Positions 1,136-33,309 of a stretch of DNA of 33,309 nt are shown here, piece after piece; the stretch's first letter is position 1; every line of letters begins with the position of its first letter. The translations under genes were made by a program, and so were the position numbers. The notes beneath the pieces are model-generated. The model did not search any database, had not been told where the DNA came from, and worked only from the letters and a program-made list of their open reading frames with translations. This DNA is from Gelidibacter sp. (GTDB lineage Bacteria; Bacteroidota; Bacteroidia; Flavobacteriales; Flavobacteriaceae), in contig JAAFHC010000013.1 of assembly GCA_010906935.1 (NCBI GenBank), forward strand, positions 1 through 33,309, given 5' to 3'.

Positions 1136-1254
1136 GTTGTAAGTTATACGTTGTAGGTTATACGTTATAAGTTATAGGTTATACGTTATAAGTTATACGT
1201 TATACGTTGTAAGTTGAAAAAGAAAAATAATTAGCTATGAAAAGTTATAAAGAT
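1136..1254 (+). repeat. Degenerate GTTATACGTT/GTTGTAAGTT array, copy 1, with 5' end of the following gene
   Basis: About 80 bp of imperfect tandem units of about 10 bp (variants of GTTATACGTT, GTTATAAGTT, GTTGTAGGTT) begin just after wzm. They are followed by a short purine-rich leader and the ATG of the small gene at 1237. The whole block, including the first six codons of that gene, recurs at 1601-1710, so the gene is bracketed by direct repeats. Confidence 0.85.
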
Positions 1255-1599
1255 TTAGACATCTATAATTTGTCTTATAAATATGCTATTGAGGTTCATA
1301 AAATGACACTTAAATTGCCTAAATATGAATTATATGAAGGAGGAAGTCAATTAAGAAGATCCTCTAAAAGTATTGTAAACAATATAGTAGAAGGTTATGG
1401 AAGAAGGAAATATAAAGGAGATTTTGTAAAGTTTTTAATATATGCACAAGCTTCATTGTTAGAGAGTACTAGCCAGTTAGAAATGATAAAAGATATACAC
1501 TTTTTTGAAGGAATTGATGAAATGGTTGAAAATTATAATAGGTTAGGAGCAAAAATATTTAGTTTTATTACGTATGTTGAAAATAATTGGAAAACATAA
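1237..1599 (+). CDS. Four-helix bundle protein (23S rRNA intervening-sequence protein family)
   Basis: A 120 aa protein of the S23/four-helix-bundle family. These proteins were first found encoded inside intervening sequences of 23S rRNA and are common as stand-alone genes in Bacteroidota; their biochemical function is not settled. The family signature is clear: the N-terminal YKDLDIYNLSYKYA helix, then QLRRSSKSIVNNIVEGYGRR at about residues 38-57, then a helix ending in LEMIKD. Nothing suggests a part in polysaccharide synthesis. It sits between the two subunits of one ABC transporter. Nearly identical leaders plus the first six codons occur before it (1216-1254) and after it (1672-1710), so it looks like an inserted or duplicated cassette. 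Family call is secure; any function here is unknown. Confidence 0.9.
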   Translation: MKSYKDLDIYNLSYKYAIEVHKMTLKLPKYELYEGGSQLRRSSKSIVNNIVEGYGRRKYKGDFVKFLIYAQASLLESTSQLEMIKDIHFFEGIDEMVENYNRLGAKIFSFITYVENNWKT

Positions 1600-6227: not shown

Positions 6228-7343
6228 ATGAATAAAACAGCACTCATTACAGGAATCACAGGACAAGACGGCGCTTATTTAGCAGAATTTTTATTGCTAA
6301 AAGGTTATGAAGTTCATGGTATAAAAAGGCGTAGTTCTTTGTTTAATACAGAACGAATAGACCATTTGTACAAAGACCCGCATGAAAAAAATGTGAAGTT
6401 TAAATTGCATTATGGAGATTTAAGCGATGCGTTAAATTTAACCCGTATTATACAAGAAGTGCAACCCGATGAAATTTACAATTTAGGAGCCATGTCGCAT
6501 GTAAAAGTGAGTTTTGATACCCCAGAATATACGGCAAATGTAGATGGTTTGGGTGTTTTACGTATTTTAGAATCGGTTCGTTTATTAGGGTTAACAAGCA
6601 AAACAAAAATATACCAAGCATCTACCTCAGAATTGTATGGGTTGGTGCAGGAAACGCCACAAACCGAAAAAACACCGTTTTACCCGCGTTCACCTTATGC
6701 AGTGGCCAAAATGTATGCCTATTGGATTATTGTAAATTACAGGGAAGCTTACAATATGTTTGCTTGTAATGGTGTTTTATTCAACCATGAATCGCCTTTG
6801 CGTGGTGAAACCTTTGTAACCCGTAAAATCACCCGTGCTGCAAGTCGCATAGCCTTAGGATTGCAGGACACCATTTATTTAGGAAATTTAAACGCCAAAA
6901 GAGATTGGGGTCATGCAAAAGACTATGTAGAAGCCATGTGGCTCATGTTGCAACAAGACCAACCGGAAGATTTTGTAATTGCTACAGGAATTAGCACTTC
7001 TGTTCGGGATTTTGTGCGTTTGGCTTTTAAGGAAATAGGAGTTGAATTGGTTTTTGAGGGGAAAAATGAACACGAAACTGGTAAGGTTGCCAAGTGTACA
7101 AATCCTAAATATCAATTGGAAATAGGAAAAGAAGTGATAAAAATTGATCCAAGATATTATCGTCCAACAGAGGTTGCCGAATTAATTGGAGATGCCACAA
7201 AATGCAAAGAAAAATTGAATTGGAAACCCAAGTATAATTTACAGGGATTGGTAAAAGAAATGATGGAATACGACCTGCACTTATTTAAAAAAGATCAATT
7301 TTTAAAAGAGCATGGTTTTGATACGTTGAATACATATGAGTAA
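6228..7343 (+). CDS. gmd: GDP-mannose 4,6-dehydratase
   Basis: Converts GDP-D-mannose to GDP-4-keto-6-deoxy-D-mannose, the first step towards GDP-L-fucose. It is a 371 aa cytoplasmic SDR-fold enzyme, full length for the family. The NADP-binding loop is [11 protein letters not shown] (8-18); the catalytic residues are T133 and E135 in STSELYG, with Y157 and K161 in the YxxxK motif of [29 protein letters not shown], a Gmd family stretch, is intact. The partner fcl is 789 bp downstream, an unusual gap filled by a GIY-YIG gene and three repeats. Its sequence looks less A+T-rich than neighbouring glycosyltransferase genes. Identification is very secure. Confidence 0.98.
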
Positions 7344-7350
7344 TGTTCTC

Positions 7351-7440
7351 GTTCTCGATACAATTTTAATAAAAATTTGCATTTTTATTAAAACCACTCG
7401 AACTGACGCAAACAAACAAACAAGCACCGTCAGTTCGAGC
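7351..7440 (+). repeat. Multi-hairpin flavobacterial repeat, copy 1 (partial)
   Basis: Starts GTTCTCGATACA, then a hairpin with arms TTTTAATAAAAAT / ATTTTTATTAAAA (7364-7389), then an inner pair CTCGAACTGACG (7397-7408) / CGTCAGTTCGAG (7428-7439). It lacks the third hairpin and closing arm of copies 2 and 3 and runs through a 15 bp linker into copy 2. It lies 7 bp after the gmd stop. Confidence 0.85.
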
Positions 7441-7455
7441 GATTTTGACAGGAAG

Positions 7456-7614
7456 GTTCTCGATACAATTTTAAAGCAATTATGATAATTATTTATATTT
7501 AAATTTGACAAGCTTTAAAACCACTCGAACTGACGAAATTGAGCAAACAAACCAAAACACGTCAGTTCGAGTGTTTTTAGTGTAGCGCAGCGAAACTAAA
7601 AATGTATCGAGAAC
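7456..7614 (+). repeat. Multi-hairpin flavobacterial repeat, copy 2 (complete)
   Basis: Closing arms GTTCTCGATACA (7456-7467) and TGTATCGAGAAC (7603-7614) are perfect complements. Inside are three hairpins: A, TTTTAAAGC (7469-7477) with GCTTTAAAA (7512-7520); B, CACTCGAACTGACG (7522-7535) with CGTCAGTTCGAGTG (7560-7573); C, TTTTTAGT (7574-7581) with ACTAAAAA (7595-7602). The plan is a cloverleaf-like four-way structure. Hairpin A differs in sequence from copies 1 and 3 but still pairs. Confidence 0.9.
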
Positions 7615-7657
7615 GAGAAGGGCTTTGAAACCCAATCAAAATAATTAAGTTAACGCT

Positions 7658-7957
7658 ATGAAAAAGAGTTATGTATACATTTTAAAATGTGCTGATGATT
7701 CCTATTATACAGGAGTTACAAGCAATTTGGAAAATAGAGTATTCCAACATTCAGAAGGGTTTTTTAAGAATAGTTATACGTCTAAAAGGAGACCTCTGGT
7801 ATTAGTGTTTTATGCTGAGTTTACTGATATTAATTTAGCTATTGAGACAGAAAAGAAAATAAAAAAATGGTCAAGAGCAAAAAAAGAGGCTTTAATTAAT
7901 GAGGAATATGACAGTTTAATTAATTTAGCCAAGAAGAAGTTCTCGATACAATTTTAA
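7658..7957 (+). CDS. GIY-YIG nuclease superfamily protein
   Basis: A 99 aa single-domain GIY-YIG protein of the small group common in Bacteroidota. The family signature is YVYILKCADDSYYTG (5-19), with conserved R27, H31 and E63 and the EKKIKKWSRAKKEALI helix. The core active-site residues are present, so it may be a functional endonuclease; the biological role of this subgroup is not established. It lies between gmd and fcl, with repeat copies 1 and 2 before it and copy 3 after it. Its last codons and stop (encoding FSIQF) are supplied by the first bases of repeat copy 3, so the natural C-terminus was probably replaced or extended by the repeat. It is most likely an insertion in the operon, not a polysaccharide gene. 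Confidence 0.92.
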   Translation: MKKSYVYILKCADDSYYTGVTSNLENRVFQHSEGFFKNSYTSKRRPLVLVFYAEFTDINLAIETEKKIKKWSRAKKEALINEEYDSLINLAKKKFSIQF

Positions 7958-8076
7958 TAAAAATTATCATTTTTATTAAAATCACTCGAACTGACGAAAG
8001 AGAACAAACAATAAGCATCGTCGTCAGTTCGAGTGTTTTTAGTGTAGCGCAGCGAAACTAAAAATGTATCGAGAAC
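7939..8076 (+). repeat. Multi-hairpin flavobacterial repeat, copy 3 (complete)
   Basis: Closing arms GTTCTCGATACA (7939-7950) and TGTATCGAGAAC (8065-8076). Hairpin A is ATTTTAATAAAAAT (7951-7964) with ATTTTTATTAAAAT (7969-7982); B is CACTCGAACTGACG (7983-7996) with CGTCAGTTCGAGTG (8022-8035); C is TTTTTAGT (8036-8043) with ACTAAAAA (8057-8064). The left arm overlaps the last codons of the GIY-YIG gene. A small extra stem-loop GATTTTC-GGA-GAAAATC follows at 8087-8103. Confidence 0.9.
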
Positions 8077-8131
8077 GAGAACGGGTGATTTTCGGAGAAA
8101 ATCGTATCGAGAAGATCGTGAAGAAATAAAA

Positions 8132-9061
8132 ATGATAATGCTAAAAGATTCAAAAATATACGTTGCCGGTCATAAAGGAATGGTGGGTTCCGCCATGGTA
8201 CGAAAACTTCAAAAAGAAGGTTTTACCAACTTGGTTCTAAAAACGTCAAAGGAGTTGGATTTAACCAACCAACAACAGGTCATTTCTTTTTTTGAACAGG
8301 AAAAACCGGAATATGTTTTTTTGGCAGCGGCTAAAGTGGGGGGAATAGAAGCCAATAACACGTACAGGGCACAGTTTTTATATGAAAACCTGATGATTCA
8401 AAGCAATGTGATTCATCAAAGTTATGTACATAAAGTAAAAAAATTATTATTCTTGGCATCTTCATGTGTTTATCCTAAATTAGCGGCACAACCCATTAAA
8501 GAATCCTATTTGTTAACCGAAGCGTTAGAACCTACCAATGAGCCCTATGCCATTGCTAAAATAGCAGGCATTAAATTGTGTGAAAATTACCACAAACAAT
8601 ACGACTGTAATTTTATTTCGGTGATGCCTACCAATTTATATGGCCCCAATGACAATGATGATTTAAAGAATTCACATGTGTTACCTGCCTTATTGCGAAA
8701 ATTTCATGAAGCGAAAACTCATAATTTGGAAACTGTTGAGGTATGGGGAACCGGCACCCCAAAGCGCGAATTTTTGCATGTAGATGATTTAGCAACTGCT
8801 TGTTTTCATTTAATGCAGACCTATGAAGGAACAATAAGTGTAAATATTGGAACAGGAAAGGACATTGCTATTAAAGAATTGGCAGAAATGATTAAGGAGA
8901 TCGTTGGTTTTAATGGTAAAATTGTTTGGAATTCCAGTAAGCCAGATGGCACTCCTCGAAAATTATTAGATGTTAGTTTAATCCGTAGTTTAGGATGGGA
9001 ACATAGGATTGAATTGGAAGAAGGAATTAAGGAAGTTTATGGGAATAAATATTTAAGTTAG
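8132..9061 (+). CDS. fcl: GDP-L-fucose synthase
   Basis: Bifunctional epimerase/reductase that turns GDP-4-keto-6-deoxymannose, the product of gmd, into GDP-L-fucose. It is 309 aa, full length, with an SDR fold. The cofactor loop is [10 protein letters not shown] (12-21). SSCVYPK (110-116) carries the family's catalytic serine and cysteine, and the YxxxK motif is Y139/K143 in [19 protein letters not shown] and [17 protein letters not shown], both typical of GDP-fucose synthases, are intact. Two close ATGs exist (8132 and 8138); either gives an acceptable N-terminus. The next gene starts on the base after its stop. Together with gmd it shows that L-fucose, or a direct derivative, is a building block of this glycan. 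Confidence 0.97.
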
Positions 9062-32373: not shown

Positions 32374-32520
32374 GAAGCTATTTCCTGCTGTCCGCTACAA
32401 GTCCGCAACCCTGCCTGTCATTTTGTAAGGCTTTTTTCGTGGCTTCTTTTAGTCGCCCCAAAAAGCCAACAAAATTGTACAGCCATTATTTTACGGGCTT
32501 TCCGCTACCATCAGGGCTAA
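32374..32520. repeat. Dispersed-type element with internal hairpin
   Basis: Begins GAAGCTATTTCCTGCTGTCC and ends TCCGCTACCATCAGGGCTAA. These ends resemble a repeat that I recall downstream of many flavobacterial genes (GAAGCTATTTCCTGC ... TCAGGGCTA). TCCGCTAC occurs near both ends. Inside, GGCTTTTT (32429-32436) and AAAAAGCC (32460-32467) can form an 8 bp stem. Recognition rests on memory and not on a search. Confidence 0.5.
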
Positions 32521-32718
32521 AATGTAAGCATAAGAAAGTGATTTAAAAATTCCCAATAGTCTGTAAACTTCATACAAAACACTTTCAAAACCTTACCACA
32601 AAAATTTTACTTATGCCTAAAAAATAGAGTTAAAAATTTAAATTGTGTATTATTTTGTACATTAGCATCAAGTCTTATAGAATTAATAAATAGTCGAAGG
32701 TTTTAAAAACAGATCATT

Positions 32719-32934
32719 ATGCACACCTATAAATTACATTTACACAAAGAAGCGCAAGGTAGATTCACGGTTTCTGTGCCATCACTACCAGGTTGTATTA
32801 CTTATGGCGAAAATGTAGATGAAGCAATTTCTATGGCGAAAGAAGCCATTGAGCTCTATTTGGAGGAATTAAAAGAAAGAGGTGAAGTTATTCCAGATGA
32901 CAACAATGTTTTAGAATATTCATTAATTGTTTAA
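32719..32934 (+). CDS. hicB: HicB-type antitoxin (short form)
   Basis: A 71 aa protein with the HicB fold pattern: YKLHLHKEAQGRFTVSVPSL, then PGCITYGENVDEAISMAKEA and a helix IELYLEELKERGE, ending in the acidic VIPDD segment. It is expected to bind and neutralise the mRNA-cleaving toxin HicA. It has no C-terminal DNA-binding domain, as in many stand-alone short HicBs. The order here is hicB then hicA, with the hicA ATG 2 bp after the hicB stop. The pair lies outside the polysaccharide operon, beyond a repeat-rich boundary. The toxin partner is truncated, so this antitoxin may be a relic. Confidence 0.88.
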   Translation: MHTYKLHLHKEAQGRFTVSVPSLPGCITYGENVDEAISMAKEAIELYLEELKERGEVIPDDNNVLEYSLIV

Positions 32935-32936
32935 TA

Positions 32937-33086
32937 ATGAACTTGTCACCAAAACACCTCATAAAAATTTTGGAACAAAATGGGTTTTTATTTAAACGGG
33001 CAAAAGGATCACACCAACTTTATCACAATTCCATAACAAACAAGACCGTCATAGTCCCTATTCATGGAGGAAAAGATATGAAATGA
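32937..33086 (+). pseudogene. hicA: HicA-type mRNA interferase, truncated at the 3' end
   Basis: A 49 aa frame that is a normal HicA for most of its length: LIKILEQNGFLFKRAKGSHQ (9-27) with catalytic H26 in the GSH motif, then VPIHGGKDMK. Typical HicA proteins continue after HGGK with a final helix of about 10-14 residues (often like G-T-L-x-x-I-L-K-Q-A). Here TGA follows DMK at once, and the next bases are unrelated. The catalytic histidine is intact, but loss of the last helix probably weakens or abolishes activity. The stop overlaps the ATG of a short repeated ORF (ATGA), so that sequence seems to have replaced the end. Confidence 0.75.
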
Positions 33087-33142
33087 GCATAACCAACAAA
33101 TTGGTCGCAAATACCAATGATGATATGCGACCCGAGCGATAG
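33083..33142 (+). other. Degenerate copy of the repeated short ORF
   Basis: Nineteen codons, MSITNKLVANTNDDMRPER, aligning with MKSPLTKSLLQANTNED of the copies at 19666 and 33220 (shared S, TxxL and ANTNxD). It overlaps the hicA stop. DNA similarity to the other copies is low, so this is an older relative or a chance match. Confidence 0.35.
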
Positions 33143-33161: not shown

Positions 33162-33190
33162 CATTCCTGTGCTGAGCGTAGTCGAAGTAT
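33162..33190 (+). repeat. 29-bp direct repeat, copy 1
   Basis: CATTCCTGTGCTGAGCGTAG followed by TCGAAGTAT, identical to the last 29 bases of the window (33281-33309). The CTGAGCGTAGTCGAAG core is a common dispersed repeat of Bacteroidota. Confidence 0.9.
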
Positions 33191-33219: not shown

Positions 33220-33294
33220 ATGAAATCACCACTAACAAAGAGTTTGCTGCAAGCAAACACCAATGAAGATAAGGTGATTCCATTCCTGTGCTGA
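33220..33294 (+). repeat. Repeated 25-codon ORF with inverted-repeat ends, copy 2
   Basis: Encodes MKSPLTKSLLQANTNED then KVIPFLC. The first 63 bp match the copy at 19666-19740 at 61 positions. AATCACC (33225-33231) and GGTGATT (33272-33278) pair as in copy 1. After the shared part it runs directly into the 29 bp repeat, which supplies its last codons and stop. Confidence 0.6.
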
Positions 33295-33309
33295 GCGTAG
33301 TCGAAGTAT
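33281..33309 (+). repeat. 29-bp direct repeat, copy 2 (at window edge)
   Basis: Identical to 33162-33190, 119 bp away. The window ends inside or at the end of this copy, so its full length is not known. It begins within the 3' end of the repeated short ORF. Confidence 0.9.

Follow-up and report, generated by a model that had tools for sequence, protein, structure and literature searches.

The small GIY-YIG nuclease gene between gmd and fcl in Gelidibacter sp. and the tagged hairpin repeats around it probably form one selfish REP system (we put this at roughly 70%), whose nuclease would bind and nick the repeats and thereby spread them. Genes of this group are as a rule flanked by the repeats, repeat type and nuclease clade tend to match, the hairpins covary, copies are dispersed in genomes, and the gmd-fcl junction is occupied in some congeners and empty in others. 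We regard the UPF0213/Slx1-like nuclease as the best candidate for the missing partner enzyme of CGTC-tagged REPs.

The gmd-fcl locus and its nuclease

The window, i.e., the whole stretch of 33,309 nucleotides that was analyzed (contig JAAFHC010000013.1), has the following features at this locus.

6228..7343, + strand: gmd, left neighbour of the insertion
7351..7408, + strand: half-element F1, GTTC-TC-GA-TAC-hairpin-CAC-TC-GAAC with the tag TGACG
7428..7455, - strand: half-element R1, truncated; tag CGTC kept, closing arm gone
7456..7535, + strand: half-element F2; inner hairpin longer and of different sequence
7560..7614, - strand: half-element R2; tag CGTC outward (left), directly upstream of the gene
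7658..7957, + strand: GIY-YIG nuclease gene, 99 aa, predicted UPF0213/Slx1-like fold, PF01541 match
7939..7996, + strand: half-element F3, overlapping the last codons and stop of the GIY-YIG gene
8022..8076, - strand: half-element R3, paired with F3 in copy 3
8082..8114, - strand: degraded half-element; hairpin and GTATCGAGAA arm present, tag arm gone
8132..9061, + strand: fcl, right neighbour of the insertion

The first-pass annotation had described a GIY-YIG gene bracketed by three copies of one repeat within gmd-fcl, and a motif scan of the window confirmed this, with GTTCTCGATAC at 7351, 7456, and 7939 and the closing arm GTATCGAGAA at 7604, 8066, and 8104. Two of the copies are complete and have perfect 12-nt closing arms, as had also been claimed (copy 2, 7456-7614; copy 3, 7939-8076); the 3' arm of copy 1 (7351 to about 7455) is missing. 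In copy 2, hairpin A does have a different stem sequence with pairing retained. The complete copies are F-linker-R pairs of half-elements, where the forward unit (F) reads GTTC-TC-GA-TAC-hairpin-CAC-TC-GAAC-TGACG and R is its reverse complement. The order over 7351-8114 is F1, truncated R1, F2, R2, gene, F3, R3, and degraded R, and the stop codon of the GIY-YIG gene lies inside copy 3 (F3).

A structural half-motif had five matches in the window, all at the GIY-YIG locus, compared with a mean of 0.01 and a maximum of 1 in 100 mononucleotide shuffles. Similarly, all repeat matches with an E value below 0.1 in the 3.3-Mb draft genome to which the window belongs fall at this locus. Rfam gave no match at the window's repeat, no family was obtained from NCBIfam, PADLOC, or PHROGs, and a scan of viral contigs found no relative.

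The protein encoded at 7658-7957 matched PF01541 (E 2.7e-16). Its structure was modelled with a mean pLDDT of 85.8 and a pTM of 0.75 (residues 93-99 below 50), and the best PDB matches of the model were the UPF0213 structures 1ZG2 and 1YWL, followed by Slx1 (E 0.017 and up, probability 1.00). In 26 aligned sequences Y7, Y17, G19, R27, and E65 were invariant, and we take the catalytic residues to be among Y7, Y17, R27, and E65. The predicted fold and these Tyr, Arg, and Glu residues identify the protein as a UPF0213/Slx1-like GIY-YIG nuclease. Slx1 itself is a nuclease of branched DNA.

The window protein shares a stand-alone minimal GIY-YIG domain with UPF0213 and prokaryotic Slx1-like nucleases, for which a 2006 survey of the GIY-YIG family cites a predicted role in DNA repair; a text search of that survey turned up no mention of flanking repeats (PMC1564403). 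Selfish spread through a GIY-YIG cut would be a trait in common with homing endonucleases of the I-TevI type, but the window gene is bounded by hairpins, and no intron, intein, or NUMOD domain was seen. Homing enzymes, moreover, are described as cutting uninterrupted target sites and not recognizing their own mobile DNA (PMC1564403).

Other features of the window include a Flavo-1 RNA (RF01705, 46.4 bits) at 32377-32522 (- strand), downstream of polysaccharide genes, and, by eye, two short genes at about 32720-33090 (+ strand) resembling HicB (antitoxin-like) and HicA (toxin-like). A 23S rRNA intervening-sequence-type protein (PF05635) is encoded at 1237-1599 (+ strand) among transporter genes of the polysaccharide cluster.

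We compared the gmd-fcl junction within the genus. Thirteen of the 31 genomes of this test matched, and six junctions were read, the window's own included; those of G405, G412, G413, G416, G417, G419, and G421 were left unread. The junction is occupied in the window's genome (G000), G403, and G415, the latter two having a window-like GIY-YIG gene with their own versions of the repeats between gmd and fcl. It is empty in G047, G404, and G414, where 5-6 nt separate the gmd stop from the fcl start. The unit therefore sits in an operon junction that is vacant elsewhere in the genus.

Twelve sites of solo elements were also sought in other genomes. Among the matches listed, sequence across one site (L272) came from two sister species, another (L268) was compared in four, and the unit was absent from each. 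At these two solo sites, as at the empty gmd-fcl junctions, divergence was too high to place boundaries, and no target-site duplication was resolved. An indel between a pair of Rhizobium plasmids was considered as an insertion and rejected; by eye, a 262-column stretch that lay between similar REP copies has been lost there.

The hairpin half and the cloverleaf

Folded as single-stranded DNA, copy 3 forms a cloverleaf (-42.1 kcal/mol, z -11.7) that none of 200 shuffles equalled, and the changed but paired hairpin of copy 2 had been read as a covariation-like sign that structure matters. This proved right for the hairpin half and wrong for the cloverleaf. In 101 adjacent F-linker-R pairs, the within-half pair was complementary 93 times in the one half and 93 times in the other, whereas the between-half pair was complementary in only 7, i.e., the central between-half pair was broken in 94 of 101 dimers. 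Because the pairs within halves covary and those between halves do not, the cloverleaf was rejected as the conserved unit; that unit is a bulged hairpin half ending in the tag (C/T)GTC. Most dimers consist of unlike halves, one C-type and one G-type (G/G or C/C across the junction in 80 of 101), which breaks the long palindrome. The window, with its perfect cloverleaf, is of an exceptional kind. Di Nocera et al. also report heterodimers that they leave unexplained, in the part of their paper used here (PMC3733652).

The repeats of nuclease clades A, B, and C, described below, have in common 5'-S4-TC-GA-X-TC-S4'-TGAC, where the S4 arm pairs with S4' and X stands for either a hairpin of variable sequence or a short loop. 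Among 717 loose elements near the genes, collected without demanding S4 pairing, the S4 arms were complementary in 469 (361 of 567 unique elements), compared with a mean of 116 and a maximum of 137 after shuffling. Their outer 4-bp stem came in 26 types, and the outermost pair in clade A was G:C in 193 cases and C:G in 153. The longer inner sequences also tend to pair, with a perfect stem of at least 6 in 61% of 436 as opposed to 8% when shuffled. Our stem assignment follows covariation rather than single-sequence folding: DNA folding of isolated halves gave TCGA:TCGA as the preferred outer stem, not the bulged GTTC:GAAC pairing to which the covariation points, and R halves folded just modestly better than shuffles (z -1.7).

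Some elements are nested or composite. At L277 and L278 in one genome (G353), R-F pairs lie inside another palindromic repeat, GTTGTGCATTTTGA...TCAAAATGCACAAC, which has many copies in that genome; hairpin loops are possible targets there. Clade A units at L261 and at G353:C1:4923342-4923403 have a clade-B-like TTCGACTC(C/T)GCTCA in the inner arm and are nested or chimaeric.

Repeats and GIY-YIG genes across Flavobacteriaceae

We fetched 80 named loci of relatives of the gene with a protein alignment. Half-elements lay within 600 bp of the gene in 74 of the 80 and on both sides in 67, and their density was 3.9 per kb near the gene vs 0.14 per kb beyond 1.5 kb. For comparison we used the 214 other ORFs of at least 100 aa at the same 80 loci. 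Within 300 bp, half-elements flanked 62 of the 80 GIY-YIG genes and none of the 214 other ORFs on both sides, and 72 of 80 and 28 of 214, respectively, on at least one. The expectation that such nuclease genes are usually repeat-flanked thus holds for this group. The strict scan at up to 300 bp, on at least one side, gave 30 of 30, 38 of 40, and 72 of 80 loci in related sets, whose counts are not additive because some loci are present twice, in different sets (e.g., L048 and L124, L051 and L128, L054 and L136, L063 and L148).

Most but not all of the tags nearest the gene faced outward, 113 of 142 upstream of it and 91 of 138 downstream. Minimal R-gene-F units, in which the gene lies between terminal inverted repeats, occurred at, e.g., L057, L058, L063, L125, L145, and L152, and long arrays enclosed the gene at, e.g., L046, L066, and L067. 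The GIY-YIG gene is the sole cargo seen, a result biased because the loci were collected by this gene. Separately, tandem nuclease genes lie about 0.4-1 kb apart in G378:C22, G013:C15, G244:C1, and G495:C86, which suggests local duplication via the repeats.

Abundance was scored over 397 Flavobacteriaceae genomes. The exact inner arm CGAACTGAC...GTCAGTTCG proved too narrow a search pattern (5 of 397 genomes), and we therefore used the half-element pattern TCTCGATAC-N12-42-CTCGAA(C/G)TGAC, which gave 1779 half-elements in total in 164 genomes and 0 with the reversed pattern as a control. Close relatives of the gene, at E up to 1e-31, occurred in 62 genomes; half-elements were present in 59 of these (mean, 14.0 copies) and in 105 of the remaining 335 (mean, 2.7 copies). 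With a GIY-YIG hit at 1e-15 as the criterion, 105 genomes had both gene and repeat, 53 the gene only, 59 the repeat only, and 180 neither. The prediction of the first-pass annotation that gene-bearing genomes hold more repeats was therefore upheld for copy number (14.0 vs 2.7) but not as a strict association, as the repeat is found in 59 of 239 genomes without a hit (33 of them with at least five copies) and missing from 53 of 158 that have one. The counts are not independent, because genomes and arrays, and some of the loci, are related to one another or recur from set to set.

At 40 sites sampled from two complete genomes, a relaxed scan found 26 single halves, 9 R-F, 1 R-F-R, 3 RR or FF, and 1 F-R. 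The solo R-F order is the order at the gene, as though the gene had dropped out.

The repeat family tends to go with the GIY-YIG clade, incompletely. Clade A has GTTCTCGATAC...CTCGAA(C/G)TGAC repeats, clade B proteins, which end in SECRNATHYKY, occur among TTCGACTGCGCTC repeats, and TTCGACA(A/G)GCTC repeats accompany clade C proteins (KGWSRRKK). In a first scan of 25 clade B loci, 16 had the B motif, 2 the A motif, and 7 neither; by hand count, the C motif lay within 400 bp at 7 of 12 clade C loci, the B motif at 1, and none at 4. Mapped on a tree of 189 rows (198 loci less 9 whose frames were broken or overlong), six repeat labels required 21 changes vs 82.7 in shuffles, with 0 of 200 shuffles as low; the tree has few columns and many unresolved forks, so its fine branching is unsure and near copies inflate the clustering.

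Thirty-three genomes had at least five half-elements and no hit at 1e-15; searching by alignment revealed GIY-YIG genes of other subgroups in 26 of these, and half-elements were near none of the 30 such loci fetched. We suggest that the GIY-YIG genes of these repeat-rich genomes adjoin no half-element because different clades go with different repeats. A second, distant GIY-YIG gene (L033/L447) lies just past the window on its own contig (C208, 34862-35119), near CGTCATTGCGAG- and CGTCTTTGCGA-type repeats that were seen by eye and missed by the strict and relaxed scans. Two TTCGACT.CGCTCA-type (clade B type) repeats occur at 33173-33186 and 33292-33305.

A candidate enzyme for CGTC-tagged REPs

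CGTC-tagged REPs have been described from five phyla, Bacteroidetes among them, and include dRS3 of Neisseria and RPE-4/6 of Rickettsia; S. meliloti, A. lipoferum, N. aromaticivorans, and Neisseria are named as CGTC-positive (Di Nocera et al. 2013, PMC3733652). In the part of that paper drawn on here they are reported without a dedicated transposase, and we therefore searched a distant GIY-YIG protein (L092) against a plasmid collection. This returned 33 records, including S. meliloti, A. lipoferum, N. aromaticivorans, and Neisseria, and flanks were read in 15, picked for diversity. GIY-YIG genes flanked by CGTC REPs were seen in A. lipoferum, N. aromaticivorans, N. gonorrhoeae, Rhizobium, Shinella, and Sphingobium. 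In A. lipoferum, a GIY-YIG gene located between sufB and sufC has CGTCATCCCCGCGAAGGCGGGGATCCAG to its left and right, and in N. gonorrhoeae the gene has on both sides CGTCATTCCCGCGCAGGCGGGAATC-type units, which we take to be dRS3. N. aromaticivorans, Rhizobium CIAT894, Shinella, Sphingobium, Neorhizobium, and Aeromonas have their own repeat versions, with the nearest tags outward.

Tagged hairpins lay within 300 bp on at least one side at 11 of the 15 plasmid loci in the strict scan (10 on both) and at 13 (11 on both) in the relaxed scan, which also allowed a CCTC tag. Across the phylum, a search of 296 genomes returned 30 loci. The relaxed scan showed tagged hairpins at 17 of them, 7 on both sides, and none at 13, and hairpin density was 2.9 per kb near vs 0.22 per kb far from the gene. 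Canonical CGTCATTCCCGCG...CGGGAATCCA copies occurred among these loci, and canonical copies with AT-started stems and CCA tails flank several far relatives. Overall, classical CGTC-tagged REPs are frequent beside the more distant GIY-YIG genes of Proteobacteria and of Bacteroidota outside the family. Distant GIY-YIG genes of Flavobacteriaceae had tagged hairpins in 5 of 33 cases (strict) or 7 of 33 (relaxed); since most had none, the link covers part of the superfamily. The placement of a GIY-YIG gene between sufB and sufC was seen in Azospirillum (annotated) and Shinella (read from unannotated flanks), at L327 and L336, and could be either a recurrent or an old insertion.

The window repeat is best filed as a bulged variant of the CGTC-tagged REPs rather than a full member. 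It shares with them a CGTC/TGTC tag beside a hairpin, dimers, and dispersed copies, and its terminal tag is unpaired (CGTCAGTTCGAG at 7428, 7560, and 8022; inverse, CTCGAACTGACG, at 7397, 7524, and 7985). However, the uninterrupted 8-9 bp stem and 4-5 nt loop of the superfamily, which the repeats of several far relatives do have, are replaced in clade A by a 4-bp stem with a TC bulge and a GA:TC step and by a variable inner hairpin. The window repeat is also accompanied by a gene, whereas no dedicated transposase is reported in the part of the paper considered here (PMC3733652).

In REP/RAYT REPtrons, GTAG REPs surround TnpA-REP, an HUH/Y1 transposase (PF01797). The system described here likewise has a small gene within inverted tagged hairpins, with scattered copies, repeat-specific genes, and dimers; in contrast, its gene encodes a PF01541 GIY-YIG nuclease, not an HUH/Y1 transposase, and the tag is (C/T)GTC, not GTAG. 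To our knowledge, GIY-YIG genes are not a known class of transposase. The idea that the nuclease plays a RAYT-like part stands insofar as two-sided flanking is the rule and repeat type tends to follow clade, and has to be amended insofar as 59 of 239 gene-less genomes carry the repeat and the cloverleaf is not the unit.

On the selfish REP reading, two inverted units would enclose the nuclease gene, in the manner of the termini of a very small insertion sequence, and the gene-less units in many relatives, although not in the window's own genome, would be non-autonomous scattered copies. The hairpin may be extruded on single-stranded or supercoiled DNA, where the nuclease most likely recognizes that of its own clade by the stem, TC bulge, and GTCA tag and might nick it at or near the tag; host repair would then copy or move the unit. 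GIY-YIG enzymes are thought to hydrolyze DNA without a covalent intermediate, and therefore strand joining would need host help. For the wider proposition that small GIY-YIG nucleases are the mobilizing enzymes of the whole CGTC-tagged REP superfamily, a one-domain hydrolytic nuclease replacing the transposase and co-diversifying with its hairpin across Bacteroidota, Proteobacteria, and probably Cyanobacteria, we see about an even chance.

The nuclease might instead be a tamed enzyme that clears hairpins by cutting replication-stalling REP cruciforms, its gene co-evolving with the REPs and not moving them. The fold near that of Slx1 would fit such a role, as would the broken between-half pair in 94 of 101 dimers, which looks like avoidance of long perfect palindromes, and the gmd-fcl site common to three species; but a gene bounded at short spacing by inverted units, patchy among congeners, and present in tandem or nearby copies in several genomes is what is expected of a mobile unit, and we consider clearance unlikely. 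Repeats could also build up in intergenic DNA where a small gene merely tolerates them. The repeats of the 59 genomes without a 1e-15 hit and the 28 other ORFs with a unit on one side are in line with this, and yet none of those 214 ORFs is flanked on both sides, repeat type tends to follow nuclease clade, and none of 30 homologous small GIY-YIG genes that belong to other subgroups and lie in repeat-rich genomes is flanked, so that a passenger role is already disfavoured and quite improbable.

Long arrays enclosing the gene at L046, L066, and L067 recall a structured-RNA array with an endonuclease, like type III toxin-antitoxin systems, or an integron-like cassette array. There is only a very slight chance of this, as the units are inverted on both sides and dispersed in genomes (26 of 40 sampled sites single), and neither Rfam at the repeat nor PADLOC gave a match. 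A RAYT or other Y1 transposase elsewhere in the genome was rejected and is probably not the mover; it is hardly credible even though the window's genome has two Y1_Tnp matches, since Y1_Tnp occurs in 7 of 20 repeat-rich and in 8 of 21 repeat-free genomes (own not counted) and, of 30 Y1 loci returned across the two groups, none has the strict bulged-hairpin motif. Nor did Di Nocera et al. find a tyrosine transposase gene flanked by CGTC repeats, according to the part of their paper cited here (PMC3733652).

CGTC REPs, a known family of "orphan" repeats, were reported in 2013 as having no enzyme of their own (PMC3733652); what is new is a candidate GIY-YIG partner gene for repeats of this type. 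A search of the open-license literature, which took in no preprints and few subscription papers, yielded no published link of GIY-YIG genes to such repeats. The selfish REP system would explain lone "GIY-YIG nuclease family protein" genes inside operons, such as gmd-fcl here and sufB-sufC in Azospirillum and, from unannotated flanks, Shinella. If true, it would provide a transposase-free route of REP movement beside that of RAYTs, and with a clade-matched nuclease at hand the spread of CGTC REPs becomes a direct biochemical question.
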